From contig NC_134846.1 in NCBI RefSeq assembly GCF_965363235.1, positions 4,965,001-5,029,000 on the forward strand: 64,000 nucleotides of DNA. Reading direction: 5' to 3'. Under the pieces are notes generated by a model, which saw only the letters and a list, made by a program, of their open reading frames with translations, was not told the origin of the DNA and ran no database searches. Positions 3,001 through 44,300 of the stretch are shown here, piece after piece (position 1 is the first letter of the stretch; every line of letters begins with the position of its first letter). The position numbers were made by a program, and so were the translations under genes. The stretch comes from Mytilus galloprovincialis (taxonomy: Eukaryota; Mollusca; Bivalvia; Mytilida; Mytilidae).

Positions 3001-6000
3001 ACTTTTCTCATTTCCAATGAACTTTTTCAACTCAAAATAATTTAATAACTTATTTCGTGGTTGACTTTTCTCCTACAGAAAATCAGATTTCAATTTATGA
3101 GTTAGAAATGTCAACATTGTAATACCAAAAACCAAATAACAAAAACCCTCTTTCTCTGTCTTAAGCTTGTGTACACCATCGGATTGAGATATTTCGTGAG
3201 AAAAACGTTTCAATGTATTGCGTTTGCATACACGTTTTTTTTTGGTTATTTTTGTGTGTACAAACATCATTCCCTGAGTGTTTTAAAGAATAATGTACTG
3301 TAATATGGTGCTTGTTTCTCTTGATTTTATCTTAAAAAGGAATGTTAAAAGATGGCCGAATAGTATGTATGTCCTTGTCGTATAATAGTAATACTATCAC
3401 AAAATTGATATAAGTTGAATACATTATCGAGAATCAATTAATAATAGATATCAATGGTACCAGGATTATTATTTAGTACGCCAGAAGCGCGTTTCGTATA
3501 CATGAGACTCATCAGTAACACTCAGATCGAAATAATTATAAAGCTAAAACAAGTATAAAGTTAAAGAGCATTTAGGACCCAAAATTCCAAAAAGTTGTTC
3601 CAAATACGGCTAAGGTAATTTAATAAAACATGGATAATAACACCCAACAAAATGAACTTTTCCCCCTTGAAAACTCGTGTGTAATTTTGTTTTCACAAAA
3701 ATACAATTTGGAACATGTTTTATGCACATACTTGTATGTTGAAATGATTATAATAGAAAAGGTTAAATGAAAATATCGAACACCAAGATAAATTTAAGAA
3801 AGGAAAAGTCCATTAAAGCATTCAAAATTATCTCTAGACTTATCAACAAACGGAAAGAATGGAAGACAGATGTAATATTCTGAATTTAAACTAAGAAAAT
3901 ATGGGGCTCTCGCATCATGTACAATTCCACGTCATATTTGAATATATATTTTAACTCACGTGTAAATTTTTTTACTTTCTTATAGTTCCTGTTGAGAAAC
4001 CTGGTTATTGTCCATATTTTAACTTAGCAGCTACAAGGTGTGCATCTACATCGAAGCAACCTCTGAGATTTGCATGTTCAAATGATGCACATTGTCCCGG
4101 AAAACAGAAGTGCTGTCGGGCATGTTCTATGACCTGCAGAGATCCAGGTATTCATGTTTATCTCGTTGAATAAGTGCTAAAGTTTCACATGTGAAAGGTA
4201 TAGAACCATGAATTCGTGCTCGGTTGGAAAGAAAATAGAAGAAAGTAATGCATTTGTTTAACAAAATAGTTCCTATGCATAGAAGTGGTAGTGTTGGTAT
4301 CAAATAAAATATTTCGGATAGTTTTGGTATCAAATAGAATTTAGTGGACTTAGGGTCACTGTAAAAACCTTGTTGAAAGTTTCTTTTGGAAAAATGAAAA
4401 AAAATATATTTGCAATTATAATAGGAGGGCACACTTACCCTGTTGTTCACATCAGAAGTACCTATTTTCGTACCAACATACTTTCGGGACCCAGTACGCT
4501 CTTCTATTCAATGAAAGGTATATCAATATTTTCAGCACAAGGATACAGTGTAATATTGACATTAAATGACTGCTTTATAATTTGACATGTTTGAGCATAC
4601 GACCAAGCACCTCCTAATATTTGAAATTACATTAATTAACATAAAAAACAACGGGGCTTTTGTTTTTGATTTAATACCTTAAATGAACAAGGTACGGCAT
4701 GAAATCAAAAACTATTATGTTTCAACTTCTGTGTATTTGTTTTCATGTCTACCCGAATTTTTATATATCCGATCAAATACAAATTTCGCGATATGTTGCT
4801 CATGTTGCTATTTAAAACTTATCATTGTTCGTTTCCTTAAATAATTGTGACACCTTTCTTTCATTTGAAAACTTATCTCTTTTGTTGTATTTATAATAGA
4901 TCAAACGATCAGAACATTTATAGATAGACACTTACAATTTATTTCAACAGAAAAGTGTTATTACTGTAATCGACTTCCTGCTAATTTTATTGAGTTAACA
5001 GTAGCTTCCCTATGTTTACAAATGTACAATGAAACTGTATGATTGCATATGATTGCAAATGATTACTTAATTACAATAAGCAGTATCTCTTCGAAAATTA
5101 ATACATAATGTAGAACCTATTAAATAATTTTGTAGACATTCAACGCAAACAGATAACATTCGTATTTCATATATCTAAGTCAAATGGCAAGCATATTCTA
5201 AAGTAGTTTTATATATACGTTGTGGTGTAGACAGTCCATAAATGCAGTAAAACTTGTAGTCTCGTTGAGAAAAACTACAATGACTCAAGCTGGCAATATA
5301 GCTTAGTACTAGAACTGTTGTTTCGAATATAAATTATCATGATTTAACATACTGAAGACCTCACCAGTTAGATTTTACCACCATTAATTTGCGAATGCTT
5401 GACAACCATGTCCAACATGATATTTTCGATGATTTTTTAATTTATTGGCTCCGTTGATAAGGAGGTATTGAACAATATGAAATTGAAGTTTTATGTAGGA
5501 ATTTTTTGTTATCACTTTTATTTTGTTCAACTTTACAAAATATAAGAGCTGCGTCGGATAGAAATCGACTTTATGCAAGTGCACGTATACATGTACATGT
5601 ATAATACTTTGATTGAACTTAGAACAATCATTTAAAAACAAAAAGTCTTCAATGAGTGTTGTTCTGTTTTGTATGATTCTAATTACAACACAACTCAATT
5701 TTTAACCGGATTTTTTGTGACAAAAATGTCGGTTATTGATTTGGGAATGTTCGGCGGTCGGGCAGCGCCAAATTTTGTCCGTGCATTTACTCATGAACCG
5801 TTCAACCAAAGCTTTTAAACTTTTAATATGTTGTTACTGACAACGAAATGGAGGTCAAATTCAATAATAACGATTTTGATTTTTACCGTTCAGGAGTTAT
5901 GGTCATTGAAAGATTGAAAAATTGCGTTTCCAGTCGAATCCGTACATTTACTAATGAACTATTCGACCAAAGCTTTTAAAATTCTAATATGTTGTTACTG

Positions 6001-9000
6001 GCAACACAGTGGAGGTCATAATGACGATTTTGACTTTTACCGTTCATGAGTAATGGTTCTTAAAAGAATGAAAAATTGTGGTACCAGTCATGTCCATGTA
6101 TTTACTCATGAACCGTTTAACCAAAGCTCTTCAAATTTGAATGTGTTGTTATTTATGACAAAATTGAGGTCAAGTTCAATAATGGCGATTTTGACTTTTA
6201 CCGTTCAGGAGTTATGGTTCTTGAAATATTGAAAATTTGTGTTACATGTACCAGTCAACTTGTTGCATTTACCCATGAACCATTCAACAACCAAAGCTTT
6301 TCAAATGTTAATATGTTGTTACTGATGACAAAATAAGGATCAAATTTGATGTTGACGATTTTCACTTTCACCGTTCAGCAGTTATGGTTCTTGTGATATT
6401 GAAAAATGGCAGGACACAAATAAATATTAATAAATCCGGTTTGCTGTCGGTCTGACAGTCTCTTGTGAAACAGTTACATGCTTTTAAGAGCGATTTTTTT
6501 TTAAAAATCGAAATAGGTTAACAGACGTATTGTTATTCATTAGCTAAGGTCGGTGTATATTTGACGCAGCTTATATTATATTTAAGGCAATCCTTGTCCA
6601 CCAGAACCTCGATGTCGATCCTCACCTGTAGGTCCTGGAGGATGCGAACCAAAGTGTGTCTTTGAATATTATACATTTGAAAATGGAGCCAGATGTAAGA
6701 TAAGATGTAATCGAGTATCCGGCCCTAAACATGAAAGAGGACAACCATGTCCACCAACAAATGTAAGTATAAACATACTTTATTCATACTATTGAATGCA
6801 TTGATTGTGCTCAAAACTAAAAATTAGAAAAACTGAATTGCATAAAGAGTATAAAATACCAAAATACAAGACGAAACATGCGCATTCAGTGGATAACCAA
6901 CTAATTAAAAAGATTAAACATCGGTAGACTTCGAGAACTAAACAATGTGTAGGAAAAAGTGTCATATTTTGCTTTTTTAGGTCTTGACATAATTTTTTAT
7001 GATCGGCAATAATTGAAACTGGTCAAAGTAGATCTCATTTCACATTATCAATTGATTCTTAGGAAGGTATATATAAGCTATTTTTAGTTATGATGGATTA
7101 GTTTCTTGTTTTTGTCTTTCATAATGGTTTTTTTTCTTGTTGTTTTTCAGAACAAATTCGAAATAATTTGATATGTATAAGAATATAATAGTTAAAGAAT
7201 ACCAAATCAAAGAATTTAAAAAGAGAAAAATATTCAGCAAGAGACATTTATTCACGAATGCTCGACGCATTCTTTTTCTACGCATTTACAATTTGTTTTG
7301 ATCCGACGTTATAGACAACGTCTTGACAACTTCTTGAAAACGTCTTGACAACTTTTTGACAACGTCTTTTGGTGTATGACGTCAGAGAATGAAATAAACA
7401 CTTTTATTTCACATGGGAAATTATTGGTTTTTATTTCACTGGGACATCAATATAATTAATTGCAACCAATGTAATAACTGAAATGACACATTTGTGGAAG
7501 AAAAAACTTGTGTAATCTATATATATATAGCTATGTACGTTGAGTAGATTGGAAAGTTTATTCATGGTTATTTGAAAATTTATATATCATGTATATGTGT
7601 CTAATTTTGGATATCATTTAACAATATATATGTGTTCCTGTGACTGTTGCCAGATACTTCATCTAATATGCAGATATATTCCCCTGATTTTACGTTTGGT
7701 GTAAAGAATACGAACAGTCATTAATTTATTCTGAGTTTAATTGCCAAGGAACTAATTGAACAATGCCACATCTACGTTCCAGATCATGTACCTTAAAAAA
7801 TTTAAATTGTTTCTTGTTCAAAAGACATTAGGAAATTATTGGTATTTATAATTAACTTTTAATTTGTTGGAATTTAATATGACCGGAAATGTAATAGAAT
7901 ACTTGATAAAAACATTAAAATTATTATATATTGTTCTTGATATATGTGTTATACAGTGTCCTTTGATTGGCCCTGTTGAACCTAGGCGTAGACCAATAGG
8001 ACCACCTGCTCCAGCACCAGTTCCACGTAAGTCTTCAAAAAAATTTTATTTTCAGTCTTAATTCGAATTCACTCGACATTTTGGAAAACTTATCGATACT
8101 GATACTTTCACCTATACCTATGACGACATGTAAATTGTTGGTCTCCAGGTGTACACAGCGATTTATAAAAAATGTATTTTTTCAAAATCCTATTGTATAT
8201 ACTGTATAAACATGATATACAAATACTTTCAATGATTTTTTAAATTATTGGCCCTTTTGACAAGTAGAGATTGATCGATGACATGATTACAATCCTAACA
8301 TGTTTGTTGTATTTTTTTTTTAAACTAAAGTGTACCAACCAGCTGTATGGCATAAGGCATTGTACTTTTAGGCATTTTATTAATTACACACCCTCTCCTC
8401 AATCTTATTTTCCTACTTCTTTAAATTGATAATAATGCATGTGCACGTTATATTTAACTTGCTGTTTCAGCTCCATCACAGTGTCCGCCTGTATGTGCCA
8501 TATTTTGTCAATTTGGTAACGTTCTAGATGAGAATAACTGTCCAACATGTGAATGTAAAACAGGTAAAACCATCAAATTGTGGTATTCTTTTTCACAACG
8601 TTTGTTTTGTCAATTGGTTTGTTTAAGTCTTCGATGATTTTACCATACCATTAGTCAGTTATAATTAATCACTGGGTTCTGGTAAAAATTCTATATCATT
8701 TGAATGTAATGCAAGTAGGAGGTTTGGCTAGTTATAAACAAGGTCAAATCAACTATTTTCCATGCAAAATGTATGTTTCAAGTTAAGAGTATAATAGTTC
8801 TTTTTCATGAGTTGGTTTCATTAAATGTTTGAGTAAGTAAAATCATTGACTTGATACTATATAAAGACTGTCTTTTTTTATATACCCTAAAATTCAGTAT
8901 GTTTGTTAAATTTTTCTAATTGAATGCTCTCTTATCTTTTTAACAATTTACGAATAAAAATATCATAGTGGTTCAATGCTCATGTACAAATTGCCATTTA

Positions 9001-12650: not shown

Positions 12651-13140
12651 ATGATAATTAATGTCAGCACAAAAGTGCTGACTACAGGGCTTGTGATACC
12701 CTCGGGGAAATAAATCTCCACCAGCAGTGGCATCGACCCAGTGGTTGTAAATAAACTCATCATAGATACCAGGACTAAATTTTGTACATACGCCAGACGC
12801 GCGTTTCGTCTACAAAAGACTCATCAGTGACGCTCGAATCCAAAAAAGTTTAAAAAACCAAATAAAGTACAAAGTTGAAGAGCACTGAGATCCAAAATTC
12901 CTAAAAGTGTTGCCAAATACAGCTAAGGTAATCTATGCCTGAGGTAGAAAAGCCTTATTATTTCAAAAAATTCAAAATTTTGTAAACAGTTAATTTATAA
13001 ATATAACAATATCAATGATAATTCATGTCAGCACATAAGTGCTGACTACTGGGCTTGTGATACCGAAATAAATCTCCACCTGCAGTGGCATCGACCCAGT
13101 GGTTGTAAATAAACTCATCATAGATACCATGCTTGAAATG
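12651..13140 (-). repeat. Tandem hammerhead-like repeat: one full ~365-base unit plus a partial second unit
   Basis: Unit 1 runs from AATGATAATTAATGTCAGCAC near 12650 to about 13014. Unit 2 restarts with AATGATAATTCATGTCAGCAC and stops near 13135. On the minus strand, 12789-12827 carries CTGATGA, a GTCT/AGAC stem, GAAA, then a CGC/GCG stem and TA. The unit also holds a GTCAGCAC/GTGCTGAC hairpin. Confidence 0.75.
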
Positions 13141-20300: not shown

Positions 20301-23300
20301 ACTAGTATATTGCTGCATTGCATATGTTTGTTCCATATATTTGGTTTTAATAAGTTTTGTTTTTGTCTTAAGAACACGACAAATGCTGCCTTAGAGAGTG
20401 TAACGTCTTTCAATGTAGAGATTTATCAAATGTAAGTATTTTCATACTACATACATCGATATTTGACTAATAAGAATAAGTAAAAGACGTTTATCAACAA
20501 CCTTCAATCCATTACCCTGCATCAAAAGACGGACACATAAAGTTTATCAAATGTGTTTATTTCGTTCCTCAGATATCAAATAGTCCGGTACGTCTAAAGA
20601 TACGATAATTTTTTGTTATTTTAAGTCAATAATAAAATTATGCATCATTGAAATAGTATATTTACCATTATATCATATCAAGTTATTAACCTTATGAGGA
20701 TACAACAAACGGGAAGTCAATTGAAAAACTTGGTACTCTTTTAAAAGATAGTTTTAACCTTATTTTTTTATCGGTACTTTGATAATTTTTACAAGAAGAA
20801 AATGACACATTTGAATGCACTTTTTTGTTAAACATTGTCGTCAAGTTATTTGGATATTTCTGAATTTACCTTCCCGAAGAATATGCATGTCATACAAATA
20901 TTTAAGTAGGGAAGAAAAAAATAAATTACGCAACGTCATTTACGTCTTATTTTAACATTCTCATTTGTTTGCTATCAACATTGTACTTACACTAGTAACT
21001 CCTTTCTTTATTCGGCAAAGTACATGATACTTGAACAAAAGAGATACATTCAAGTTAGGTATTGATGCTAGACTATGGCATACACTTTTTCTATTCGTAT
21101 GTCAATTTTATTGGCATGAAAATACGGATTTTTTGTGTCATTAAAATTTGCTGTTACAAAATGTTAGAAATTATTAAAGATTAGGGAATGTATCTCCCTC
21201 AAGAAAAGCTATGATTCCTTTCACGGATTTGGCTATACTTTTTGGATCTTTTGGATTATAGCTCTTCATATTTTATATAATCTTTGGATTTCAAATATTT
21301 TGGCCACGAGCATCACTGAAGAGACATGTATTGTCGAAATGCGCATCTGGTGCAGGAAATTGGTACCGTTTATGTTATTACTACCACTGGGTCGATGCCT
21401 CTTCTGTTGGACTTTTAGTCCCCGAGGGTATCACCAACCCAGTAGCCAGTACTTCGGTATTGGCATGACATTACGGATTTTTTGTGTCATTAAAATTTGC
21501 TGTTACAAAATGATAGAAATTATTATAAATTAAGGAATGTATCTCCCTCATGCAAAGCTCTAATTCCTTTTACGGATTTGGCTATACTTTTTGTACCTTT
21601 TGGATTATAGCTCTTCATATTTGATATAAGCTTTGGATTTCAAATATTTTGTCCACGAGCATCACTGAAGAGACATGTATTGTCGAAATGCGCATCTGGT
21701 GCAGGAAAATTGATACCGTATATGTTATTAACGATAATTAATCACCAAGTTCATTTAAATGATTTTAGTTTAAAGCAACTCTATTCGAAGGATTAATTTG
21801 TTTTACAGTTTGATTAAGAAGAAAAATTAACATAGTTAGATAATACTATTAATTACACATTACTAACACACGTCTATATTATTATTTTCTTATCGTCGTA
21901 AAATACATCAAATTATATAATAACAAATCTAATCTCGACTATACCCAATTCGTGTATATTTACCTATGACGTGGCGTTTATACATTCGTGTAACGCACAG
22001 TTCGATATTCTAGTATGCAGTGTTGTGTACTGTCCTAATTTTTTTTTTAGGTATTTGTTGTTATTAAATTATGATTAAAATGTCGCAATATACTGTGATA
22101 TTACATATTTATGTATTTCTCTGTCCTGAATGTTTTTGCATTTATTTTTATTGTATTCCTGTCATGTAATGTTGTCATGTTATCGTTATTTGTAACTTTG
22201 TCATAAAACGTAAGATTTGGCTGGCCACGAAATCCGGTTCAACCCACCATTTTTCTTAAATGTTCTGTACCAAGACAGGAATATGGCATTTCTTATCTTA
22301 TTGTTTGTTTCTATTTATGTTCATTGTTGTTTGTTCTTGTTGTACTTCAGCCCTTCTGTTGTTTCCTTGTTTTCTTCTTATAGTCGACGTGTTTCATTCG
22401 GTAAAGTTCATATAAAAGATTTGTATTCACTCATTGATTTATGACTTTTAAACAGCGGTATACTACTAGCTGTTGCCTTTATTTGTTGTATTATCAGAGA
22501 CATAATATATCTACAATAAGATTCTGAAATTTGTTTTGAAATGTATTTAATGTATTTTATTCAGTTACCAGGAGGACCAGGGGACGTAGGACCAGGACCA
22601 GTGGTAGTACATTTTATCTATATTAATAATGATCAACAATATATATATTTTCTAAATGCTAGTGTTTTTAACTTTTGTATTTTTTTTTTTATTTTGGTAA
22701 AGGCTGTTTCAGTGAACTTTGAAGTCCGTACAGATATACATATGCATATCTTGGTAAACTAATACGACAGATAAGCATGGCTTAACGCTTGCTATACAAT
22801 TAAATATTTTCCATTAGTTGATATACGGAAATCAAAACAACACCATTTGGGTTCTTAAATGATTTGTGTACGGGAATATTACTTAATTCTTCAATATTTT
22901 AAAGTTTCCTCACTTGTTGTACTCATTTAGACGTACACCAGTCAATTAAACAACACACACAATTGATATATGAGATCAGCAAACGTTTTGAAAGACTGTT
23001 TTTTTTTTCTTTAAGGACAGTAGTAAATCAAGACGTTCAACAAAACCAGGTTACTATAGAGTTTTCAAAGTAATGTACATAGGCAGGTCCAGTGTCAGCA
23101 TAGTAGTAAAACCATAGAAACCACTAGTTTCTTGAATGGCCATACCTCATATCATTGAGGAATACTGATAGTGTTTTTAACAAGTCATGTTTATATCTTA
23201 GAATAATGTCTTCAAACAATTTGTAACCACATTTTTTTTTATCTAGTTAGTGTCTTGACTTATTCATCTTAAATAATTTTTCCTTCCCTTTTTTCTTCAA

Positions 23301-26300: not shown

Positions 26301-29300
26301 GAAGAGAAAAGAGTTAGGAATAAAAAAAAAAATTTTTGGCAAAATTTTATAGTATTACATGATTATCAACATCATTCTGAATTAGAACATAACAAATTAA
26401 CAACATGTAAGAATTAGCAAACTTTTTAGAAAAAGAACAAATTCAATTGACCAGAACTTTGCCAAATAGTTGCCTTATTTGTACCGTACCACATCTCCTA
26501 CCTTTTATTAATATGAAAAACGTTTGCACATTCTCTATACCATGTTGAATAAAAATATAAAGTATAATATGTTTCTTTCTCTGTCATAAAAGCCTACGTG
26601 TTTTATGGAATGTTAATGTATGATATATTTAAGGTCGAAAAAATACTTCTAGTGATAATCAACTGAAGCTTAATATGTGATATATGTCATAGCAAAACAA
26701 GTACAATAAACTATTATTATTAGCATATATTTTTCAGCATGTCCTATCGTATCTTGTGACAATACCAATTGCCAGTTTGGCTTCCAAAATGATAGAAATG
26801 GTTGTAAGACATGTTTATGTGAAAATAGTACGTAAAAATGACAATAAATGTAAATAACATGTAACATATTGATTCCAATTTCAAGAACATTGAATGATGC
26901 TTACAATCTGACACGAAAATGTCTTTCATGTGACATCTATTTATTGTTTATCTATACATAAACAAAATTAAAAAAAAACTAAATCATTCTAATCTTTAAG
27001 TCTTATATCTGGATACCGTTTCCTTTTTAAGTTTGTAGACATGATTAAGCCGCATCATGTGACATGTAAACCAGTTAACGCATTGCAAAATCTTTAAACT
27101 TCTTAGTATTCATAGATATAAGAAGGACTGACATGTAGACATAAACCAGTTTCTACATTAAAAGGAAAACTTGAAGTTTCAATGTCATAACCGTTAACGT
27201 TTGCATATGTTATGCAATTAATCTATTCCTATATCAATGAAGATTGTTTGTTATCTGTGTTTTAACTTGCTTTTTAATATTTATGTTATCCCAAGATTAC
27301 CGTTTATTTACAAACATCTCGATATATCTTGTTGAAAATACACTACTTTATTTTTTTCAAAGCCAGTGATAACCACAATTAACACTTTTAGGTCCTTGTC
27401 CCCAGTATGGACCTCCTGGACCAGGTGTTTGCACAAGACCAGGTGATCCCATCATTGTACGCGGAGTTACATGTAACGGTCCACCTGTAGAAATTCCTTG
27501 TAAACCAGGTAATAAGTTAGACCTATATTAAGCATTTGGTGTCAGACCATTCCAGTTGTTCCTTAATCACATTTCAAATAATGACTAAAGACTGATTCCC
27601 AACTAGGTTCTTCATTCAGGAATTTTGAAAATATACTCATTATAGATTTTTTTAGTAAAATGTAAACCTACCTGACGCACCCATTTTACGAAGGCCAAGA
27701 TTCAATTACAATATATCTATCTCTATTCTATAGCAAAATAAACAAGCCAGTCCATTTCAATTAATTTTTCATGGTAAAATTTTATAAAATAAAAATTCCG
27801 CGAAATGATGTTATTGTCTTAGCATGGCAACGAAACAAGGTGACGTCACAAATATGTTTCCGTAAACAAAAATTCAAATGTAAATAAACGCCTTAGAACG
27901 AATAAAATTACTTTGGATGAAAATATATAGGCGAACAATGTGATTTAAAAAAAATCATTGAATTATATGATATTACTAATTCTATCAAAATTGGGTAAAA
28001 CAGAACAGCCAAAACAGTATCGTGTGTATAGGGCTTTCACGGTTGACAAAATTACCGAATTTGTCCTATACGAATCGAAACAATTCCACATGTTTCGGAT
28101 TTAGTTCCATAATTTTATCCATCAAATCTAAGAATAACAGAAATTACAGACATGGCTTGTTCTGCCTTACTGTTATACTTATATCTCTAATTTGACCCAA
28201 GTGGTCATCTCAGAACATGAATCTATCACTTACGAGACGGTTATAAACTATAAATAACCCGATCTTAGCAGAATATACAAATTTCACTTGCATTTTTATG
28301 GTATATACATTTCAAAACTGATTTGATATTCTAGAGTTTGCAGCTGCAAAAGATAATTTAGAAAAAATCATCAGTGTCTGAGCAGAAAGTTAATGAGCCA
28401 AATTGCTATGTCATGACCAGCTAACGTCACTACTTTTTTTACTGTCTTTCTTTCTTGTCTATATGTCATTTTGTTTTACTTCGTCATATATTCTTTTAAT
28501 AGTGATTAAGATTATATTACAATGTAGTATTTTATTACACAATTTTTGACATATTTACCTAATAATTGTGTTTGTATTGTTCACATCTTGTTGTCGTTAT
28601 CATGCAGTTTTATTTCATACAAGGTAAAGCTTAGGCTACACAAGTTTAATAAATAGTTATCAAAGGTACCAGGATTATAATTTTGTACGCCAGACGCGCG
28701 TTTCGTCTACATAAGACTCATCAGTGACGCTCATATCAAAATATTTATAAAGTCAGATTTAAAACATCATTTTATACATAATTAGATAATGAAATGTCTA
28801 TATAAAGTCAGTATTATGACAGTAGTTTTTTGGTCGTGTTTGAGCTATAAATTTTTCCATTTTAGTCCAGTATTTTTGTTAATCAACCTGTATTTAATTT
28901 TCAGTTCAAAAACCTGGTAAATGTCCATTTGTCAACCTACCTGCTTTGTCTTGCCCTGGTGGTCCATTACCTAGAAAATGTAGTAATGACAGAGGTTGTC
29001 CTGGATATAAGAAATGTTGCAGGAGTGGATGTGAATTCCGATGTAGAAATCCAGGTATTTCAAGGCTCAATCAATTTATGTACTCGATTGATGCCTATTT
29101 CTGTTTTGATGTTATATTCATGACTGATTCAAGTGTAAAAATAGTTTGCGACGGTACGTGTGAAAAACTGCATCATTGTTATAATGAATTTATTAAATTT
29201 TTTTTACAGATTTGATCATTAAAATTAAAAACAATTTAATATTTTAAATGAATATCATGATGTTAAATAAGCTGTAAGTAGAAAGAGCACGTTTATAAGT

Positions 29301-32300
29301 CTACCTCAAGAATTGTAATAATCTACAAGTAATTACGAACCGATCAGCTTGTGTTCTGCAGGATTTAAAATGTATATTTGTTAATTAGCTGTTTCATTAT
29401 TTGACGTAAGGCAACATATTATCATTAACATGTAACATGCGCTTTTAACACTTTCTGCAAAGTTTGAACACTGCCGAAATATGACATTCCTGTGTCATGT
29501 GTGTTCTTTACAGTTGAGTAATCTTCTATGGTCTTATAAATCAGAAAATTAAAATAAAACATAATTCTATTAATGTTTGATTGCATATGCACATTCATGG
29601 CTCTACAATCGATTTACATTTGCTTTTTACAATTTCGTGATTTTTTTCTGACTTTTTCTTAGTTCTTTATCTTTAATCCATTGTAATTGTTGATACGTCG
29701 TAGACATGTGCTTGATCATTAGTTGCTTTTTGGTTTGAATTAGTTGTCAGTAACTGCAAGTACTCTCAGATCATTATTTGAGGTCTTTTATGTTGTGGTG
29801 ACATATGGATACATGTACCATACCATGTCCAGTTCATGATTTTGTTAGATGTGTTCGTGTTTTGTATCGATCTGATGCGATAAGCTGTTTCAATCTGATT
29901 TGCAGTTTGTTCTTATTTTGTACCATTGGTTGTCGTTCGTATGTCGTACATCATATATAATTTTTGTTCAATGTTTTGTTCATAAATCAGACCGTGTATT
30001 GGCTTATGTAAATTGTTTAACGTTTGTAATTTTGTGGCCATTTTTAGCTGACATTACGGTATGTGTATTTCGCAATGTTAAAGGCCGTATAAAAATTTAC
30101 CTATAAGTGTAAATTTGTGTGACATATGTCTCCAGTAGAAAGTTGCCTTATTGGTAATCATACCATATTATTTCCATATACATGACATAGAAAAAAAATG
30201 AAATAACAAAAATACCTAAATCCAATTAAAGTTAATATCAAAAATAACATACCATCTTTGAATATATAAATTATTTAATGTTACATTAGCATGAACAGGT
30301 TTATATAAACATGACTTTTCTTCATAAAGACATCGTTTATTTACTGTAGGTCATTTAAAAAACAAATGATGTACAACTATATTTTATTATTTCAATTGCA
30401 ATTAAGCTTCACCTGATAACAAGGATGAATGTCCATATGTGAACCTTGCTGCTGTATCATGTCCAGTGCAGAAACTCAGAAGTGATAAATGTAGTGGTGA
30501 AGGAAGTTGTATTGGAGAACAAAAGTGCTGTAACAACGGTTGTTACAAGGAATGCACAGATCCAGGTAGGCAAATGAAAATATATTGTCAGATCTGGCGT
30601 GATAATTTTGAGTTTAAGTATGAAATGTGTATTGAAAAGGATAAAGTGTTTGATAAAACTAAAAGATACAATAGACTTGTAGTAACATCTAAATTGTTAT
30701 TAAAATTTCCTTTTTCCCAACTAACATCCGAGGTTTTAGCATTTTTAGAAACAATAATGATCAGATCCACCTAGAAGTCGAAAATGTCAAAATGTTAATT
30801 CGAAAAATTAACAACAGTTTTTTATTCGGATTCTGACGTTGTTTGTTCTCTTAATAACATGTTTTAGTAGTATTCTTTTATTTGTCTTAATACATGTAGG
30901 TATTACTGATATTGTTTAGTCTGTTTTTGGTGATAAACACTTGACGGGGCTCTGTACTTATGCATCAGTCATTGTGTTATTGTTCTATGATATTTTTTTG
31001 TATTCTCGTGTTTCATTTTTGCTTTTGTACTATCTGCGTTTTTGTTTCTTTTTTAAATATAATATAACAATATTCTTATACATCCCGTCATTGTCTTATC
31101 ATACTATACTAAATTTTTGTATTCGTGCTTTCTAAGTATTTACGTTAGGGTATGTATTTGGTATAGTAGAACGGAAATACAATATAGATAATTACATGGA
31201 ACAATGGTAAGGAAACCAACAAATATTGATCTATTGACACATCGAGACAATTTTCAGTCTTTGTTGATAATTTCTATGTTTCCTACATTAGCTTTGATGT
31301 GACGTCTGATTTCTTTTGCAAGTTTGAAAAAAATACTTCAAAGTACTCTTAAACCAAAGGATAGCATATATGTATAATTCCAAGTCTGAGTAATTTAAAG
31401 TCGCTCAGGCATGAAAGAGGAGTTATTTATAACAGGTATTTAGTGAAAAGATATAATCAGAAGGTGATCCATTACTTAAAGATGTAATTATTTCACATCC
31501 AACATAAAAATCCAAATACGGAATAATGCACTTGTCTGAGAAATACAAATCCATAAATTTTGATGTATAAAACAATTCCGAGTAATCTAAAACTAAGGTA
31601 TATATATAATGCAAGTCTGAGTAATTTTAAAATCTTACATGTATAGGCACGAAAGAGGACTTATCAATGGGGCAAACAGATTTGTAGTGGAAACCTATAA
31701 TCATTACTAAAAGATGTAGTTATTTTCACATACCAACACAAGAATTTAAACATGGAATAATGCATTTGTCTGAGAAATTCAAATTCTTAATTATTTACAA
31801 TGACATGTAAGAACTAAATGTAATTATGACAGGTTACGTATATTAGTATGAATAAAAGTTATTTTCCCGGGTAATTTTGAATGCACATAACTGTTAAATA
31901 TATATCCAGTAAAGTACTATTTTTTTATATTAAAAACGTTAGCACGAATGAAGCTGTCCCTTTTTTCTTAGCTTACACTATAACAATGTCATATTTTGTG
32001 AAGATGATACCGTTATCATTACCATATTTTGAAATTATTGTATTGCTTATACATGTTATATATTATAGATAGCTCACTTAACATTATTTTGTTCAGTCTT
32101 TTTTTTTTTGCATTTTAGGAAATCCTTGCCCACCTGAACCGCGATGTCCACCCTCACGTGGAGGTCCTGGTCCTGGAAGATGTCCAGCTAAGTGTATCTA
32201 TGAGTATATAACAACAGTAAATGGGGCAAAATGTAAGATAAAATGTACTCGGTCATTCGGCCCTCAAGGACCAAGAGGACAACGCTGTCCACCGACAAAT

Positions 32301-35300
32301 GTAAGTAATTCATGTTGTATGTGTGATGAATACGTAATTGTGCTTATAACCTAAATAGAAAAGTATACTGTATATTGTAAAGTATTAAAACCAAGGAAAC
32401 ACGTTTGGGTAACCGACTAATTAATAAAATTTAGGATCGTCAGAACTGTAGAATTAAAAACACGTAAATATAAGAACCATGTATTTCCTGCTTTTGTCTA
32501 ACTATATTTCTTATGATAAGAAAATTACTTAAACAAGAAATCTTATCAAATTGCAAAATTAAAAAACCCAAACATTTCAAACGAATGGACTAAACAATCA
32601 TATTCCTGACTTGGTACATGCCTTTTCGTGGTACAGGTATCTTTAGTTTTGCTAGATTGTTTTTAAACTTTTTGAATTCTCATATGTATATGTTCCGGAC
32701 CATATGAGTATTTGATTATACGCGTACGGTCATAACCGTATGGGTATTATTAGTTACATAGTGTGATAGTGACCTAATCTGATATATATGGGGTCAGTAA
32801 ATTCCATATGGCATGAGAGCGTATGTTTCAAATACTAATATGGTCCTGAACATGTATATATGCATATTGTTAAATATTGATCATGTTGTGTTATGTACAC
32901 TGTTGTTTGATTTTTTTATTTTTTTGCGGGGGGGGGGGGGGTAGCCTTGGTATTTTAGTTTATTTTCGTTTCACGAGTCTGACTGTCACTTGGTTATCTT
33001 TTGTACCTGTTGATGGCACGCATTTTGTACGAATAACTGATTTAAGGCATGGCGTAAAGACATAAACAATTCAATTTTGTTTTAATTAAAAGATATGATC
33101 GATTGTACATAAACTTATCAATGTTCAATTTACGCACCAGATCATATGTCTTTAAGAATCCAAATAAAACTAACTGATTTGTGTCATATTCAAAATGACT
33201 TGTAATAATTAAAGGTGTCTACAATTAACTGAAATATCAAAACATTCAAATTGTATTTATTGTTCTGGATCTATCATTTTAGTGTCCTCGGATTGGTCCT
33301 GTTGAACCTATAGGTAGACCAATAGGACCGCCTGCCCCCGCACCAGCTCCACGTAAGTCAGGATCTTAACAATGTTTATCGGCATGCATCTTTTGAATTT
33401 AATAAAAGATCTTCTTATCGTAAACATAACTTAACTAAAACATGTAAAAAGTAAAAAAGAATTACATCTTTAGTAAAATTAAAAGCATCTTTATTTGATA
33501 ATCAAACTGTATCGTACTGTTTTTAAATGTAAATCATCCAAGGCCAAAGAAAGGTAAACATTTCCCGTACTTGTCTTGTTTCCATTCAGGGGAGATGTTT
33601 TTTTTTAAACTGGAAAGGTAAGTTTTCCATGTAAATTTTGACCTCTTCTGACGGACTCTTTATTCAATTTTCGAATGTCAAAAATCTTGATACATATCTC
33701 CACTTTTACCTTTTGAAAACTCCTTATTGGTTAATTATTTATGAATAAAATATATTTGATAATGAATAAATTGCATTGGATCCTTTTAAACATTTTTAAA
33801 ATGAGTTTTTCTATGTGACTGTTTGTTTACGATGGTATTTTCAGAAATTTGGCCATTTTAATTAGAAATTACATCCCCTATGTACAAAGCTACGATAAAT
33901 TGTCAAAATTTGGCTACACTTTTATTTTTAGGTTTGATCCGATCTTTAGCATTAGTTCAAGTCAAGGATTTATAATAAACTATTGTGTTCGTCTCGAGCA
34001 ATATTATGAGACATTTACAAGTCTGTATACAAAACTGCTGCACGTTTAATATCATTTTATCTTTCCTGTTTTAGCTCCAGCAAAGTGTCCGCCTGTCTGT
34101 GCCATATTTTGTAATTTTGGAAACGTTCTTGATGAAAACAACTGTCCAACATGCAAATGTAAAACAGGTAAAGCAAAACAATACTGTTTCAATTTTTATA
34201 ATATGTTATCGTTGTCTTTTAAGCAATTGGTTTTTTTTTTTGTTTCATATTTATTTTCATTGTTGCCTTTTTTAGCTCACCTGGCCCGAAGGACCAAGTG
34301 AGCTTTTCTCATTACTTTGCGTCCGTCGTCCGTCGTCGTCGTCGTCGTCGTCATCCGGCGTCGTCTGTTAACTTTTACAGATTTTCAGATGAATCGGACA
34401 ACCCGTTGTTAGGTTGCTGCCCCAGAACAAAACAAAAATTTCAAATTCAGGGGCAGCAACCCAACAACCAGTTGTTGGATTCATCTGAAAATTTCAGGGC
34501 AGATAGATCTTGACTTGCAAAACAATTTAACCCCCGTCTGAATTGCTCTTAATGGTTTGGTATCAGAGTTATAAGCCAAAATCTACATTTTACCCCTATT
34601 TTCTATTTTTAGCCATGGCGGTCATCTTGGAAGACTTTTGTAAAAGATTAGAAAAAAATTACGAAAAATTGGTAAAAATTTACTATAAAGGGCAATAACT
34701 CCTTAAGGGGTCAACTGACCATTTTAGTCATTTACCTTATTTGTAGATCTTACTTTGCTGAACATTATTGATGTTTACAGTGTATCTCTAGTTATAATAA
34801 TATTCAAGATAATAGCCGGTATAATTTCCATGAAATTGCCAATTCAGGGGCACCAAGCCAACAATCGGTTGTTCGATTCGTCTGAAAATTTCAGGGCAGA
34901 TAGATCTTTACCTGATAATCAATTTTATCCATGTCAGATTTGCTCTAAATGCTTTGATTTCAGAGTTATAAGCCAAAATCACATTTCACCCCTATGTTCT
35001 ATTTTAAGCGACGACGACGACGACGGACAACGGACGCAAAGTGATGAGAAAAGCTCACTTGGCCCTTCGGGCCAGGTGAGCTAAAAATGAACATACAACC
35101 ATAATAAAACATGGCAAAGTATGTAAGCTACCTCGAAAAACACTGAAGAGATATTTAAGTCGAAATACGGATCTAGGGCATCGTTCATGTTTTAATATGT
35201 TAATTTGTTTTAGGTCCACATAAGTGTCCACCTGTCTGTGCCATATTTTGTCCTTTTGGTAATGTTCTGGATGAAAATAAATGTCCAACATGCAAATGTA

Positions 35301-38300
35301 AACCAGGTAAGCAAACATATAATGTTTAAATACTTGTAATTTGTTATGGAAGTCTTTTTAACAACTTTTATGGTATATTTAGCGGAAAAAACCTATTTAC
35401 TGGTCTGTCCGACAGTCTCTCAATTTTGTGTATAGATAGATAACATGTATAGTTATTTAAAAAAAAACATCCATTTGTAATTGAAATAAGAACGTCTAAT
35501 GTAAATCATTAATAAAATATAGAAAATGCAATGTTTACAGAAATGAAAAATCTGTATCATTGCGAAAATGAAAAGAGGAACATTTAAACTACGAAAAACG
35601 AAACAAAAACAGTCACAAATGACCAAAAATGGCAAACAACAATTACAAAACTTATGACTGTAACCGTTCATGGGATTGAAAGCAGAACTGCGCCTATGGT
35701 GGCTTAAACTGAGCAGAATATCATTACTGGATCGATAGTTCATAAGTAGGTGTTAATTAATTGAAGCAAATGGATGCACAAATATACCTTTTATAGTTAT
35801 CAAATGTACCAGGATAATAATTTATTATCCCAGACGCGCCTTTCTTCTTTCATAGAACCACTCATATAGCCCTGGTCGGAAAGAAGTACAAGAAAGTAAT
35901 ACATATTTAAAACAAAACAGTTTCTACGCATAGCTGTATATTTGTCAATAGTGGAAATATTTGGGTAATTTGGTATCAAATGAAAGCTTGGGGATTCGGG
36001 AACACTTTAAAACCCTTTTTTATTTGGATAATAAAGAAGTATATGCAATTTTAATTTGAGGACTCATTTGGCCTTTAGTTCAGATCAAACGTTTCTGTTT
36101 TTGTACTATCAAATTTCCGAGAAACAGTACGCTCTAATATGCAATTAAAGGTATGCTGATTTTTCGCAGCACAGGTCAAGATAAAGTATAGTTTTGACAT
36201 GAAATAACTGCCACTTTGAACTTAAGATAAAGTAGCCACTAATGCTATATGAATTAGAGGTTTTATACCTTCTACATAAGACTCATTGGTGATGCTCAGA
36301 TCAAAATAATTAATAAAACTCCACGATTTCGCATTTGTTTAGTACAAATTTGAAAATATAAATGATTTTAGGTCAATATATCGAAGATGTTTAAATTGAG
36401 TTAAATAATTAATGTCACCGGACTGGAGCTCCCTCTTTTTATTTGGTTACATTTATTTCTTTAATTATAATTGCATTAATTGCTCTCTTAGAATTTACAC
36501 AAACAAAGAATGCCCCCAAGACTTTATAACTATTTCAACTGTATGTGGGTAAAAATTGCTCACCGCCATTTCGATACGTGGACATACGCTTATACATGAT
36601 CACGAAATGCATGTATTTTGCTGATCAATGGTTTATGTTTTGGCTTAGTACAACATTTTCACAACTATAGTTACTGTTTCAATTGTAGACGAAACACAGG
36701 GTTCGTATGGTCACGTTAGTCGTTAAAAGGTCCGATATCAATTGTGGTATGGATTTCTAAAGTCTTTCAGATATATGTGGGGTCTACACACAACATCATG
36801 CATATTTTGTTCTTAAATCTTGCAGTTTATACATATCTTAGTTTTTTGACACAAAAATGGACAAAAGCAGCACTCCTTTGCCATTAACATCTTGTACATT
36901 TGTTTTATTATTTGATTGTAGCTCCTGTTGACAAACCTGGTGAATGTCCATATGTTAACCTTGCTGTTATAAAATGTGTAGCGAACTCATTTACTACTAG
37001 ATGTTCAAATGATAAAAGTTGTCCAGGTAACCAGAAATGCTGCCACCAAGGATGTTCAATAGATTGCACAGATCCAGGTAATAAGTACAGATATAAAGCA
37101 CGAATAAACTAAAAACGGTCGGTTATGCAGTTTAGTCAGTAAGTCTTTTATCTGTGTACATGTATCATTTTTTCCCGACAAAGCATGACGGGCGTTCGAT
37201 AGTTAAAGAGACTGTGATTTTGAAGCCCGGCTGGTTCACAACTGGTTCTGCTCGGAGTAAGAATAGTGTGACCGGGAAGGGTGACATGTCTGGAAGCGGA
37301 TTTTAGGTGCAAGAGCCCGACCACATAAATAGAGTATGTAAATATACCTTAAGGGACTACATAATACACTGGGAACAACATTTTAAACGGTGTTTAATGA
37401 GCTAAGAACATCGATATATGAAGATATAAGTAAATCAACCATAAATATAAATTTGTGTATCGAAAGATATTATAATTTAGAAGTTAATATGCTTTTCAAT
37501 CGGCAGATGCTACTCGACACGTGACCACAAATTACTTAACATTATGTTCAATCAATATTCTCCAATAGACAATTGTCTTTTGATCGTTGCTAATTGATAA
37601 TTAATGGTGTGGAACATTTTTTTTCAACTTGATGAACGAACAATTAAAATTTTTGATATAACAGTGCTTTCATTTTGTTTTACTATAACAAGAGAAATTG
37701 TTAAATTATCCAAAAAACTCCAATGTCAATGACGCCAATTGTAGAATTATAATTTTATAAAATCGGACTTGTTTCCTTGAAAGTAATTAATCAATTATAG
37801 TGACTTGAGAATATTTATCAATACATATAACAAGTGTTTGTGTTGTCTATTTTATACCCGGCCCGTTGTACCTATAAATCACAAATCGAGTAAGTTTTTA
37901 CAATATCACGGGCAACATGTAAACTTATTTTTTCTCAATTAACATTCAATCAAAATTAAAGTCTAAATATTTAGATTTGATATGAAAATGATTCAAATGG
38001 TATGGATTATACAGCAACTGAATTCTATATTGTAGCTGCGAACTATATATTTACTGCTATTGTACTAGTGTTTCATTGGCCTAGAACAATGTTCACTTTT
38101 CAGCAGAATCCCATATCTGAGAAATTTATTCCAGTTAAGACTGAACCAAAAGTATGAATGCGACAATTTAATATACAAATGGCAGTCAAATAAAGAAGTT
38201 GGTCTCAGTTTCTGTTTTTCGATTGTTACAAAATAACCATAGACTATCTCCTGGAATTTCATTTGAATACCTTCATGTTTCCACTTTTAAGTTTGTTTTT

Positions 38301-41300
38301 TTTTTTTTGTATGTTTTTATTTTATGTAAACAAAGTTTCATATAACAAATCTGATAAATGTTATTCGGCGTCTAAAATAACAAATAAATGAAATGTACAA
38401 TCATTTCAGTTATGGGATCAATTTTATATACTAGAACTAATAATATTACAAGTCAAAGATTAAGGTGGTTTTTTTTTTTCTTTTGTCGTGTGTCTGTATT
38501 GTTTTTTAGTTTGAGTATTGTTGGTTGTTTGATTTGTTTTTTGCAGTTACTTTAACAAAAGTGAACTATTTTTTGGAAATGTATGTACATTTTAGTTTAT
38601 GACCTTAGACAGATGCTATTCAAATGATCCAAAAATTGTGTTAATTTAGGAATATGTATTGTTGTTATAAAATTTAAAAAAAAAACAAAAAAATAATGTA
38701 AACATTATAATTAGTACATGTAGTATGCAAATCAAAACTGTTTATGAATCTTTATTCGTTATCTTTTTTCAAAGTTTTTTGTATTTTAGGAAATCCTTGT
38801 CCACCAGAACCCCGATGTCCACTCCAAGGTGCAGGTCCTCCAGGTCGTCCGGGTGTTAGACATTGTGAATCGCAGTGTATCTATGAGTATATAACAACTG
38901 TTAATGGAGCCAGATGTAAGATAAGATGCACTCTGGCAAACGGCCCTCCCGGTCCACCAGGAGAACCATGTCCACCAACAAATGTAATTTAATACAAATA
39001 TTGTTGTTGTGTAATACATGAAGGATGTTTGCTCCTCTATTTTTGAATTTTAGCTAGATTTTCAGAATCCTCTGGTTTTATCTATATATTACCATTAAAA
39101 AAAATTGCCCACTAACCCCTACTTTTCTTTTCATAATTTTATTACATGAAGTTCAAAAAGACATATTTCAAAATCTTATAAAATCCTTGTTACTTTTTCA
39201 TAGTTTTTGAAACCAAAAGAGTGTCAATGTTAACTTGAAATGTAAGAAAAATCTAAAGAGAATTAGTTCCCGCCAAATTTTCTATGGCTTATATCTCGAA
39301 AACAAGCACACAGACCCTCCATTTTTTCTGCTTTTATTTTTTCTTCATTTATTTACTTTCAATTCATAACAGTCTTTTAAAAAGCTTGTTATTTTTCAAC
39401 AGAATAGCGAACATCCTTAAGTGTACTCAAAACTATAAAACATGAAATACAGAATAGTACATTGTTGAGTATACAAACCATAACGGCTACGAAACACGTG
39501 TGCATAAAGTGGATAACCAACTGATTAAGAAAACAAACAGTCGTTATTTTAAAAAAGGGCATTTTCCATGATACACTCACTTAACGGAACCTTATTGACG
39601 TAGCCAATTATTGTATTAAAAAAATGAAAAGACAGACTAATAATTATATGGCTTGTAGTATTTAAACATATATTTATATTCAACTCAAACATAGATACGT
39701 CTGAATAACTATTTATTGTTTTGTTCTCTTTTAGTGTCCTAGACATAGACCAATAGGACCGCCTTCCCCAGCACCAGCTCCACGTAAGTCTTTATATAAA
39801 CAGTGTTTATCTACATGCAACTTATCATCTTATACATGTTATATATATGTACTCAGCGTAATTTGATAGCACATATTTCTAAAAATAAAATGTGACCCCT
39901 TCCAACAACTTCAGCTAAATCAAATGCATCTTATTCAGATAGTCAAATGTTATCTTACTGTTAAATGTGCTTGTTTCAAAGACGAAGTAATACATTTTTC
40001 ACCAGTTATCAAGTCTTTTGACGGCCATTTTAATCAAGTTTTCGTGCGTAAAATCATGATACAAAACTGCACGTATAGATCATGTTTTTTTCATAATTGG
40101 TTATTGATTCATGAGTAGCATAACTTTGACAATGAAAATAGTTTTTGATCCTTGCAGGTGTGATTGTATTTTTCACAATGAACACAGCAACAACTGGCGA
40201 AATAATTTGATGTCAGAATCTAACAGACCTACACCTTGTCAAAAACACAGCAGCTCGTTTGATTACACATGTTACAAGAAAAAGTAAATTTGACGCCTGT
40301 TTAAACATCGTTACACTGGCTACCCGTTCTTTACCGTTATTTACATGAACTTCTCTGATATGTATACAAAACACAGCATATAACATGTATAAGGATTCTA
40401 GCTACCTTTAAGATTTAGATACGACATGCAAGCACAATACAATGCAAAAGCTAACTCAGGTCGGAAAACAGTATGCTTTTACATCTACCGAATGAATCCG
40501 AACGAAAATCTTAGGCGAAAGAAGTTTTGACAATTCTGTGCCTTCTCTTTGGAATAGTTTACCACCGTCCTTGTGGAGTGTAAATTGTTTAGATGTTTAA
40601 AAAAATAACTGAAGACTCACTTCGTTCAAACAGCTTTTAAGGATTTCTTGTAGATTTAATTTTAATTGACTGCATTAATTTAGAATGTTTTGAATTTTAA
40701 GGGTACATTTTTTTTTATCTTTATCTGCTTTAATTAGTAGTATAATTGGTGGTTTGTATATTTTTGAACAGCAGTATACATGTTGTACTACTGCTGCCTT
40801 TATTTTTTTATCTTTTTTTTTGTATTTCATTCATTTTAATTGTAAAGCCCTTTGAGTAATTATTGCCACATATGTAATATTAATGCGCTTTTTAAATAAT
40901 GTATTATTATTTATAAAAAATACATTTCCCATGTAAAAAGCTCTGGTAATTGTCAGGGTAATGTTACACTGTTTTTTTTACAAATGTTTGCATTGAGCTA
41001 CACTAAAGAAGTATATAAGTCAAATGACGGATCTAGTGCAATGTTAAGGATGTACTTAGGTGAGAATTTGGAATTTATGTCCAATGTTCAGACTTCATGG
41101 TGTTTTCCCTACGATATAATGTAACATATTTTGCCCCATAACACACATTTATCTTTTCATATAAGACTTCAAAGTTCATAAAAGGTCATTTACCAAAATT
41201 TTGGCATTTTCTTGATTTTCGTTCTTTTGATTTGAGACCCAAATAAAACCAATGCAAATATAAGGTAAAAGTCCGTGTCAGCCTTTTCCGCCATAATATA

Positions 41301-44300
41301 ATGTCATATATTTTGAAAGGAGCTCTTTGACCTATATTGAAATCAATATTTTGAGCTTATTTTGATCCTTATCTAATGCTTCTCTTGGTTGTACAAGTTG
41401 TATCAATTTTAAATTCTTGATCTATCTAAAATCACCTAATTACGTCCTTAAAGTCATTATACATTGCATGTTTATTTCTTCGCACTCCTCTAAAGTTTCC
41501 GCCTGTTTGTGTCATATTTGGTAACGTTCTGGATAAATGTACAACATGCAGGTTTCCCCATGGTCACATTAGTGGTCAAAAGGACAGATATCAATTGTTG
41601 TATGAATTTCTAAATTTCTGAGGTATGTCAGATTAATGTATTGTCAAAACACAATAAATAGGATACATTCACGCTTTACATATGCATTATAAAAGCACAA
41701 GTCAACTTGAGTTCCCTCTAATATCTTTCGCCTCTCTTATATACATATATTTGTTTTTATTACAACTATCTGTTTAAAAATATAAACAGTAAACTCTCAT
41801 TAAACTGGCAAATTTTCGTTATTGCAACAAAAATGGACAAAAGCAACACTTCTTTACCGTACACGTCCTGTATATTTGTCATGTTTGTTTTATTATTGTA
41901 TCTAGCTCCTGTTGGCAAACCTGGTGAATGTCCATATGTGAATCTTGCTGCTATATCATGTCCAGCGAATTCTTTTCCTTCTAAATGTTTAAATGATAAA
42001 AGCTGTCCTGGAAACCAGAAATGCTGTAATCAAGGATGTTTAATCGATTGCACAAATCCAGGTATAAGGATACAGATACATCTAACTTAATTTATAAGCA
42101 AAACACTTCATTCAAATCAACAATAAAAGTAAATTTTCACCTGTGTTTGTGCATTAAAAGAAATGTGTTCTTTATGCAACACTAGCGGGAGCTGATTATT
42201 AGAACCAACGGCTGAAACCAAAAGTTTCCAGTCACCATCATTAATTGGATTACATTCGTACATGTGTGTCTCACCTAGGACAGTTCATGGTTTTTGCAAG
42301 CCAACATTTGTAGAAACTAGTATTAAAATAGTAGCATAATCTATATATTTTTAATAACAGGTTGTGTTCTATTGTATTGTGACTGTTGACTTAGAAATAG
42401 CTGCTAACGTCGTGAAGGTGTTCCTATTCTCAATCAATTAACAGTTTATTCGTTCATCATGCGTGCTGTATCGTACCTGTTTTGCTGATTTGTATGCTGT
42501 AGATGGATTTGTGACGTTTTCTGTTGTGTTCTGATCGGTTAATCATTTATGGTTGTTTTGCAATACTATCTGTATGGCCTGTTAATTTAATTGATCATCT
42601 CTCACAAATTATCGAATTTTAGGGAATCCATGTCCACCAGAACCAGTATGTCCGTCATCTCCTGTGGGTCCAGGGGATTGTGAACCGAAGTGTATCTTTG
42701 AGTATGTGACAAGTACAAATGGAGTCAGATGTAAGGTTGCTTGTACTAGGGGTCCACTTGGTCCTCGACCTGGTCCTGATCACCCTTGTCCACCGGCAGA
42801 GGTTAGTAAGGCTGTTACAATATGCCAACAGCACTTGTATGCATCATATCCGCAAACAAAATTGACTAGAATACTATAATAAAAACGAAAAAATGTCAAA
42901 ATAAACGTAAACGGGAACAAAATCAAGTTGAAGTTTTACGCAAAACCAGTTAAGCATCAAGATAGTAAAGGATATTTGTCATTTATGAGTTTGAATTTAT
43001 AGAAAATAACATATAAATTAATTTTAAGAAAGACTTACATTAGTCAACATTCCAGCAGCACCTGCATACGGTGTATATATCTCCCAATTGATCAGATATT
43101 CCCGTGCTTCCTTTCCCTATCATGATTTTCTTGATAGAGGGTTGTTGCTCACAAGGAAGCTATTAAATCAAGAGTTCCAAAGATATTGAAGTTGAAATCA
43201 TCTTTTCGTAAATAACCGTTTCACAAATGATATCAGATATGTTCCTTACGTCGTAACTACAATCCCCTTCCCTTTCATAAATGTGACCTACCGAATTAGA
43301 CTATTAACATGATTTACCAGATTTGTTATCTCATAAGCAACACGACGGGTGCCACATGTGGAGTAGGATCTGCTTACTTTTCCGGAGCACCTACAATCAC
43401 CCCTAGTTTTTGGTGTTGTTTGTATTGTTTGTTCTTTAGTTTTCTATCGTATCTCTCGTCCCTCTTTTACATTAAAATACACTTCATCATGTTTATATCG
43501 TTTTTAGATAACTCTCATTTCAAATTTTTTTTAACTTGCTTGTTTGGAAACAATTATCCTGCTTGACGGTAACCATTATCAAATATGAAATTACTATTAT
43601 CCATTGCACGAATTATACAGATATATTTATACGTATTTAGTTACACATTTGTGTTAAATATCTACATGTATGTATGCTCTGCTTCCACGAGGAGAAGATA
43701 GCAGTTTGTAATAAATTTTCTGTTATCAATATATTTTGACATTTTGGTATCTTCAGTGTGTTAATTTTAAAATACTTTTTGGTGAAAATCTGTTTATTCC
43801 GGGTTGTTTCAAATAAATTGTATTTCCAATAATGCAGCGACTTCAGAAATCTTCAACATCTTAAATTACACATTAGAATCATATTTTATCATTAATCAAC
43901 AAATTTTATCATAACTTTGCACCGTAAAACAAAATATGTTTACAAACCCTCATCCGTTCATACTCCATTTAACATAAGATATATAGATAATAGTTAGTTA
44001 TCAAAGGGACCAGGACTATAATTTAGTACGTCAGATGCGCGTTTCGTCTACATAAGACTCATCAGTGACGTTCATATCAAAATATTTATAAAGCCAAACA
44101 AGTACAAAGTTTAAGAGCATTGAGGATCCAAAATAAATAAATGTCAAGATTATTTATTTCTTGTAAATATTTCTTAATAAAAAAGCTAAGATGAATAAAA
44201 TCAAGACAATGTGAAATAACCAGAGCAATTATTTAGTATGTGACTGATTTTTGTTCTATAGTGTCCTTTAATTGGTCAAGGAGATGACCAGGAAGAAACA

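Follow-up and report, generated by a model that had tools for sequence, protein, structure and literature searches.

Retrozyme copies in the window

The window (C9:4965001-5029000) is 64 kb long and comes from an assembly of 1.385 Gb in 331 contigs. Positions 28650 to 28755 (minus strand) read as a 5′-truncated solo copy of a repeat unit of ∼355 bp (98% identity by BLAST to positions 250 to 355 of the family A consensus described below). The copy contains a type I hammerhead motif (28687 to 28730) with a predicted cut between 28693 and 28692, after consensus position 312; 28650 to 28692 is the stretch between this cut and the 3′ end that the copies share, at consensus position 355. A solo copy such as this one is unable to release a unit alone. 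The letters that the preliminary description gave for minus strand 28724-28686 (CTGATGA, GTCT-TATGT-AGAC, GAAA, CGC/GCG, and TA) are present as described.

The 25-nt core of the motif has five matches in the 64-kb window at three or fewer mismatches, whereas 100 dinucleotide-shuffled versions averaged 0.00. A 20-mer adjoining the core occurs seven times in the window, and an nhmmer search with the 231-nt region as the query gave 11 additional places (E values of 0.00025 or better). The conserved boxes had been described as kept in copies at 12789, 1541, and 44036. This is correct for the 12.8-kb copy, in which the motif (12790 to 12833, minus strand) is intact (RF00163, 32.5 bits); it lies in a longer, more diverged copy (12652 to 13103, minus strand; consensus 2 to 346 and then 2 to 93) that is an exception to the common 3′ end. 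The other two are altered. In the family A copy at 1509 to 1758 (minus strand; motif at 1542 to 1591), loop II is six bases longer and stem III has one change (RF00163, 28.8 bits), and the family A copy at 43995 to 44134 (minus strand) has one stem III mismatch and was not reported by RF00163 at an E value of ≤1. Copies that had not been listed include those at 3.5, 56, 21.3, and 21.7 kb. The hammerhead pairs are partly broken in the family A copy at 3443 to 3622 (minus strand), and a five-base insertion interrupts the catalytic core in the family A copy at 55823 to 56104 (plus strand).

A family B copy of nearly two units occupies 21109 to 21730 (plus strand) and has its 3′ end at the position corresponding to that of family A. 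A pattern scan found a hammerhead motif with all three stems in it at 21310 to 21353 (predicted cut, 21347/21348), and a second motif, 349 bases away and identical in letters to the first, lies at 21659 to 21702 (predicted cut, 21696/21697). Both motifs have intact boxes and stems, and of the copies found in the window only this one could release a unit.

Two other sets of blocks are repeated in the window, at 28889 to 29057, 36912 to 37080, and 41896 to 42064 and at 6572 to 6766, 32104 to 32304, and 38775 to 38987. On visual inspection, both sets resemble exons that were duplicated within a gene for a cysteine-rich protein.

Hammerhead register and predicted fold

No match at the Rfam gathering threshold was found in the window or in six genomic loci. 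With an E-value threshold and a search of 401 bases, Hammerhead_1 (RF00163) aligned over its full length (model 1 to 45 of 45) with minus strand 28730-28687. The Rfam check that the preliminary description had proposed yielded a full-length type I match, with a score of 33.0 bits that is 1 bit under the gathering score of 34. Over the whole window at an E value of ≤1, RF00163 matched three copies (at 28.7, 12.8, and 1.5 kb), and each of three array units in a further locus (L001) also scored 33.0 bits, the best score seen; every match fell at least 1 bit short of the gathering score. Matches to sraA, SNORD78, the L20 leader, RAGATH-1, CRISPR-DR25, and others were below their own gathering scores and were set aside.

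The RF00163 alignment consists of stem I (GCGUCA/UGGCGU), CUGAUGA, stem II (GUC/GAC with a U-A extension), GAA, stem III (ACGC/GCGU), and C. It has the boxes CUGANGA and GAA, an NUH cut site, and the three stems of a type I hammerhead, opened by stem I. The preliminary description had read stem III as CGC/GCG with a seven-base loop, had placed the cut after TA with A as the cleavage base, and had doubted stem I. The alignment replaces the first with ACGC/GCGU and sets the predicted cut at GUC|UGG, with the TA ending seven bases further on; in this register stem I has six pairs. The alternative of a TA cut with a CGC/GCG stem III was dropped, as it leaves no stem I, compared to the six pairs in the GUC register. 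As judged from the sequence, the hammerhead motif is real, its register had been misplaced, and self-cleavage is predicted.

Stem III is an 8-nt palindrome in each of the three families described below, and in a lone family A RNA it is predicted to form two pairs closed by a GCGC tetraloop. The lone RNA is predicted to prefer other folds (−9.2 kcal/mol for the core versus −5.7 kcal/mol for the hammerhead). When dimers were folded, a double hammerhead was the minimum for four of eight cores (one from family A, two from family B, and one from family C) and not for the other four, and dimer fold energies did not beat those of shuffled sequences (of 500 shuffles, 306, 178, and 183 were no higher). 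We infer that cutting is probably carried out by paired hammerheads, which agrees with what the available portions of PMC7761336 and PMC7229834 say about a weak helix III and activity as dimers.

Three families with compensatory changes

A scan for complete hammerheads in the window and the genomic loci gave 28 distinct sequences; overlapping loci were included, and row counts are not copy numbers. The family B hammerhead is GCAUCA-CUGAAGA-GACA..UGUC-GAA-AUGCGCAU-C-UGGUGC, and the family B unit, of 350 bp, is related to that of family A (∼72% identity over 324 aligned positions). Family C was represented by one sequence, with AUCCGGAU as stem III. The scan also gave two long-looped readings of a single place at 35143. 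Within the catalytic boxes, only one position, which we take to be N7, differs among families A, B, and C. The family C sequence belongs to a region of locus L032 (5560 to 6206, minus strand; stem III AUCC/GGAU) with two units 408 bases apart beside a fragment of a GIY-YIG domain.

In nine sequences (eight distinct), 97.3% of cells pair, versus 85.6% in shuffles, and both sides change in 5 of 14 pairs (shuffle mean, 3.3); further pair types were not in excess (10 versus 10.3). In a larger set of 135 matches (95 distinct) gathered with a sequence-only model, 93.3% of cells pair, versus 89.4% in shuffles, and 35 cells have changes on both sides, versus 6.5; relatedness of the copies inflates these covariation figures. 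Changes on both sides were present in 4 of 92 cells for the third pair of stem III and in 1 of 91 for the innermost pair; in a lone hairpin, the bases of these two pairs would form the tetraloop. Better evidence of covariation comes from the contrast between families, which indicates that hammerhead pairing is retained by compensatory change among the three families. The pairs that covary between families and the RF00163 matches to three window copies support the initial reading of the dispersed mobile repeat as carrying a type I hammerhead motif.

Genomic abundance and tandem arrays

The exact 25-nt core of family A occurs 11,708 times in the genome (5,650 + 6,058), and that of family B occurs 3,422 times (1,609 + 1,813); the reversed control gave 0 in both cases. 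Many of the family A cores among the matches listed lie head to tail, ∼355 bp apart, and L001 contains 2.7 units of 356 bp at 98%. The 355-nt family A consensus was derived from 11 array segments and opened after ACTATTTA, and its G+C content is 0.389. A type I hammerhead in tandem repeats of ∼150 to 450 bp with a G+C content below 50% is the layout of metazoan non-LTR retrozymes, and the unit has all of these features.

The longest stop-free stretches in the consensus are 50 codons on the sense strand and 86 codons on the other strand, and two 80-codon antisense frames in L001 that begin with TTG were not taken as genes. The unit appears to be without a protein gene, with no plausible one of its own. 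No SINE head derived from a tRNA or small RNA (tRNA, 5S, or 7SL-like) was found in L001, where ARAGORN reported 0 genes and Rfam at an E value of ≤1 reported only RF00163. A 20-nt exact search of viral contigs gave 0 matches.

Five overlapping loci (L002, L003, L007, L027, and L029) were left out of the placement of copies on the consensus, the identity comparison, the counts of 3′ ends, the analysis of 5′ ends and insertions, the unanchored flank test, the domain alignment, and the set of 135 matches. L042, which repeats L041, was left out of all of these except the first and last. The 3′-end counts and the 5′-end and insertion analysis also excluded L051 to L070 and L091; the domain alignment excluded L052 to L070 and L091; and the set of 135 matches excluded L052 to L070 (overlapping).

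Identity was 0.934 within arrays (14 pairs) and 0.893 between arrays (421 pairs), reaching 0.986 in some arrays; this comparison does not separate a circular template from a multimer. The mismatch rate was 0.029 in the core versus 0.061 in the rest, a difference that is biased because the loci were fetched by the exact core.

Some arrays have histories of their own. C1:433303-448387 (L051 to L070) contains 44 family B cores spaced exactly 350 bp apart with a common variant, ATATATTG, and the four fully read units of L051 are all identical (4/4); this array is probably the result of DNA amplification of one unit. L041 (C1, 7.12 Mb) and L042 (C1, 7.33 Mb) have an identical 1,110-nt retrozyme array, with flanks, in opposite orientations ∼200 kb apart, which is a duplicated segment. 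Family B cores at C1:2395148, 2401363, and 2407577 are ∼6.2 kb apart with family A 3′ motifs nearby, and they mark a larger tandem repeat with both families.

Common 3′ ends and scattered 5′ ends

The 3′ ends were counted for chains with an identity of ≥80% and a length of ≥25 nt. In the loci retrieved with the core, 46 of 59 such chains end at consensus positions 346 to 355, as do 42 of 49 at ≥88% identity and six of eight chains in the window; a uniform spread would place <3% there. The exceptions are 13 of the 59 core-fetched chains and 2 of the 8 window chains. The common 3′ end lies ∼40 nt beyond the cut and adjoins a conserved domain. The equivalent end was found within about two bases in all three family B copies examined (window position 21730, L051, and L082), just before (C)TACCACTGGGTCGATGCC, where family A has CACCACTGGGTCGATGCC.

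The 5′ side is different. Testable 5′ ends, pooled over all sets (n = 85; chains of <80% identity or <25 nt left out), range from position 1 to 328, and the fullest bin, 221 to 240, holds 14 of them. A cluster of 5′ ends at family A consensus 219 to 244 raises the question of a reverse transcriptase stop. Twenty loci that were retrieved with the 3′ motif are uninformative about the 3′ end but sample the 5′ side independently of the ribozyme: 17 extend past the cut, one begins exactly there, and two are shorter. Among complete insertions, 18 of 64 are longer than one unit, up to 1,199 nt.

Flank-to-flank matches averaged 4.05, compared with 3.54 in shuffled pairings (0 of 200 as high). Matches of ≥6 bp were found in 7 of 64 insertions, with 3.6 expected, and matches of ≤5 bp in 57 of 64; target duplications of retrozymes, when present, exceed 4 bp. 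An unanchored test gave no clear excess of flank matches (28 of 300 as high); it covered chains of ≥80 nt that reached position 346 and began more than 40 nt away from the edges of their locus.

The domain after the common 3′ end, aligned as 32 nonredundant rows (rows of <85 nt, identical rows, and rows at least 95% alike left out), has a hairpin at columns 69 to 86. Three of its pairs vary, with T-A or C-G at one, A-T, G-T or G-C at another, and C-G or T-A at the third. The consensus energy is only −4.35, so that one hairpin is supported and the rest of the fold is weak. A common 3′ end combined with scattered 5′ ends is possibly a new insertion anatomy for retrozymes; no report of a common retrozyme 3′ end, or of internal initiation on retrozymes, was found in the available text of the open-license papers searched.

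Passage through the cut junction

Exact 28-mers beginning just after the cut number 5,966 in the genome, and 4,789 of them follow an intact GCGTC. Another 283 follow a base other than C; 150 of these keep GCGT, and among the other 133 are sequences with several changes as well as 5′ ends that fall exactly at the cut. The same count at a control boundary five bases further on, with a shorter 23-nt anchor, was 152 (408 − 256). Thus, these genome-wide counts gave no pileup of 5′ ends at the cut relative to the control boundary. There is no sign that copies stop there preferentially, and the template appears to have been closed at the cut junction, as either a circle or unprocessed RNA.

Linear units released by hammerhead cutting were considered as the main template and rejected. 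They predict 5′ ends at consensus position 313, which are exact in only 2 of 85 cases (L018 and L075), and the genome-wide counts have no excess over the boundary five bases on. A copy in L038 (2969 to 3057, minus strand) has its 3′ end exactly at the cut, at consensus position 312, and is joined to an inverted copy; it is possible that cut RNA served as the template in this case.

Proposed cycle and alternatives

We consider it likely, with a probability of roughly 0.8, that the repeat is a 5′-truncated insertion of a non-LTR retrozyme that was moved by the following cycle. Tandem arrays would be transcribed, and neighboring hammerheads in the transcripts would cut at GUC|UGG, probably paired as a double hammerhead via the palindromic stem III. 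The units would form circles, as others have reported in M. galloprovincialis. A borrowed reverse transcriptase, perhaps Penelope-like, would initiate at one internal site, immediately 5′ of the conserved ACCACTGGGTCGATGCC domain and ∼40 nt past the cut, and copying would cross the closed cut junction, at times for more than one round. Variable stops would then yield the common 3′ end and the scattered 5′ ends. The two kinds of ends, the copies longer than one unit, and the lack of a 5′ pileup at the cut suggest a single internal site at which reverse transcription began, on RNA that was either closed or unprocessed. The more specific proposal that a Penelope-like reverse transcriptase starts at one internal site of circular RNA, set by the conserved structured domain ∼40 nt past the cut, is tentative, and we would put it at somewhat below even odds. 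If it is true, the common 3′ end provides genomic evidence on the machinery that moves metazoan retrozymes and on the circle as its template.

Passage through the cut is equally expected if an unprocessed linear multimer is copied back and hammerhead cutting plays no role in transposition, with the same element and motif. In the Penelope-like assay from Anolis, it was mainly unprocessed RNA that served as the substrate (PMC11167929), and the higher identity within arrays than between them (0.934 versus 0.893) also fits. However, according to the available text of PMC7229834, the great majority of retrozyme RNA in mussel tissue is circular, and pairing in the motif has been kept across families. 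A multimeric template seems unlikely, but it is a serious competitor. Spread or array growth at the DNA level, through rolling-circle transposition or unequal crossing-over, would make the common 3′ end the end of a DNA transposon. The absence of clear target duplications is in its favor, and the 44 cores at exact 350-bp steps, with identical fully read units, resemble DNA amplification. Nevertheless, reverse transcription is what usually leaves copies with a shared 3′ end and scattered 5′ ends, and the end of the copies is not the CTRR of Helitrons, which makes movement of the repeat as DNA quite improbable.

The stem and core defects in the window copies, the RF00163 scores under the gathering score, and the lack of a folding advantage over shuffles could all be accounted for if the repeat were a fossil with functionless, inherited hammerhead-like letters. 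This is very hard to reconcile with compensatory changes between families, with thousands of exact cores, with arrays young enough for their units to be up to 0.986 identical, and with the cleavage of a mussel unit at ∼0.1 per minute given in the available account (PMC7229834). Retrotransposition of a retrozyme by the cycle proposed above remains the preferred reading.

Comparison with known systems

Both the hammerhead motif and this kind of element are already known. The available text of PMC7229834 describes ∼5,000 type I hammerheads in M. galloprovincialis, in two similar families with repeats of ∼350 to 390 bp, slow self-cleavage, and abundant circular RNA. Because a retrozyme of this layout has been described in that species, the question of whether the repeat was already in the catalogue is most likely to be answered yes. 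The element studied here is likely identical with the published one, as compared by description; literal unit strings did not occur in the text of the papers searched. There are differences from that description, as far as it is available: exact cores number 11,708 and 3,422 here versus ∼5,000 by another counting method, a third family (C) was seen here, and a common 3′ end is absent from it. Like the axolotl retrozyme hammerheads in the same source, those in the mussel have a weak stem III with a palindromic tetraloop, and the two stem III pairs predicted outside the tetraloop agree with what is described there for axolotl family 2 and invertebrates. Dependence on dimers was measured in axolotl, whereas it is inferred here.

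According to the available text of PMC7761336, metazoan retrozymes have no conserved motif that helps to deduce an autonomous partner. GIY-YIG domains are plentiful in the mussel genome, with at least 147 matches (150 scored of 1,001 candidates) in frames of up to 911 codons, and the GIY-YIG fragment in L032 was confirmed with Pfam. Comparison of the unit with one Penelope-like 3′ region (L091) gave only matches of 9 to 15 letters (E values of 1.9 or worse). At 331 to 370 of L091, downstream of the Penelope-like frame, there is by eye a degenerate minimal hammerhead-like motif, in a place where Rfam reports no hammerhead.

A Penelope-like enzyme initiates internally in vitro, within an AC-rich stem-loop that lies downstream of its hammerhead, and does so at AT-rich targets; hammerhead mutants had no effect on insertion in that assay (PMC11167929). 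The retrozyme shares several features with Penelope-like elements: tandem copies, AT-rich targets, and a hammerhead upstream of an internal site where reverse transcription starts (a predicted site in the retrozyme). However, the distance from cut to start is roughly 85 to 92 nt as calculated from the numbers in PMC11167929, compared to ∼40 nt here, and Penelope-like elements carry a reverse transcriptase and a GIY-YIG domain, whereas the retrozyme unit has neither gene and no long frames. The layout is similar; such an enzyme is a candidate partner, and any kinship with these elements is putative. Because two diverged families share an internal 3′ end, with copying through the cut junction, the question of the partner becomes testable with a purified mussel Penelope-like protein and retrozyme RNA.
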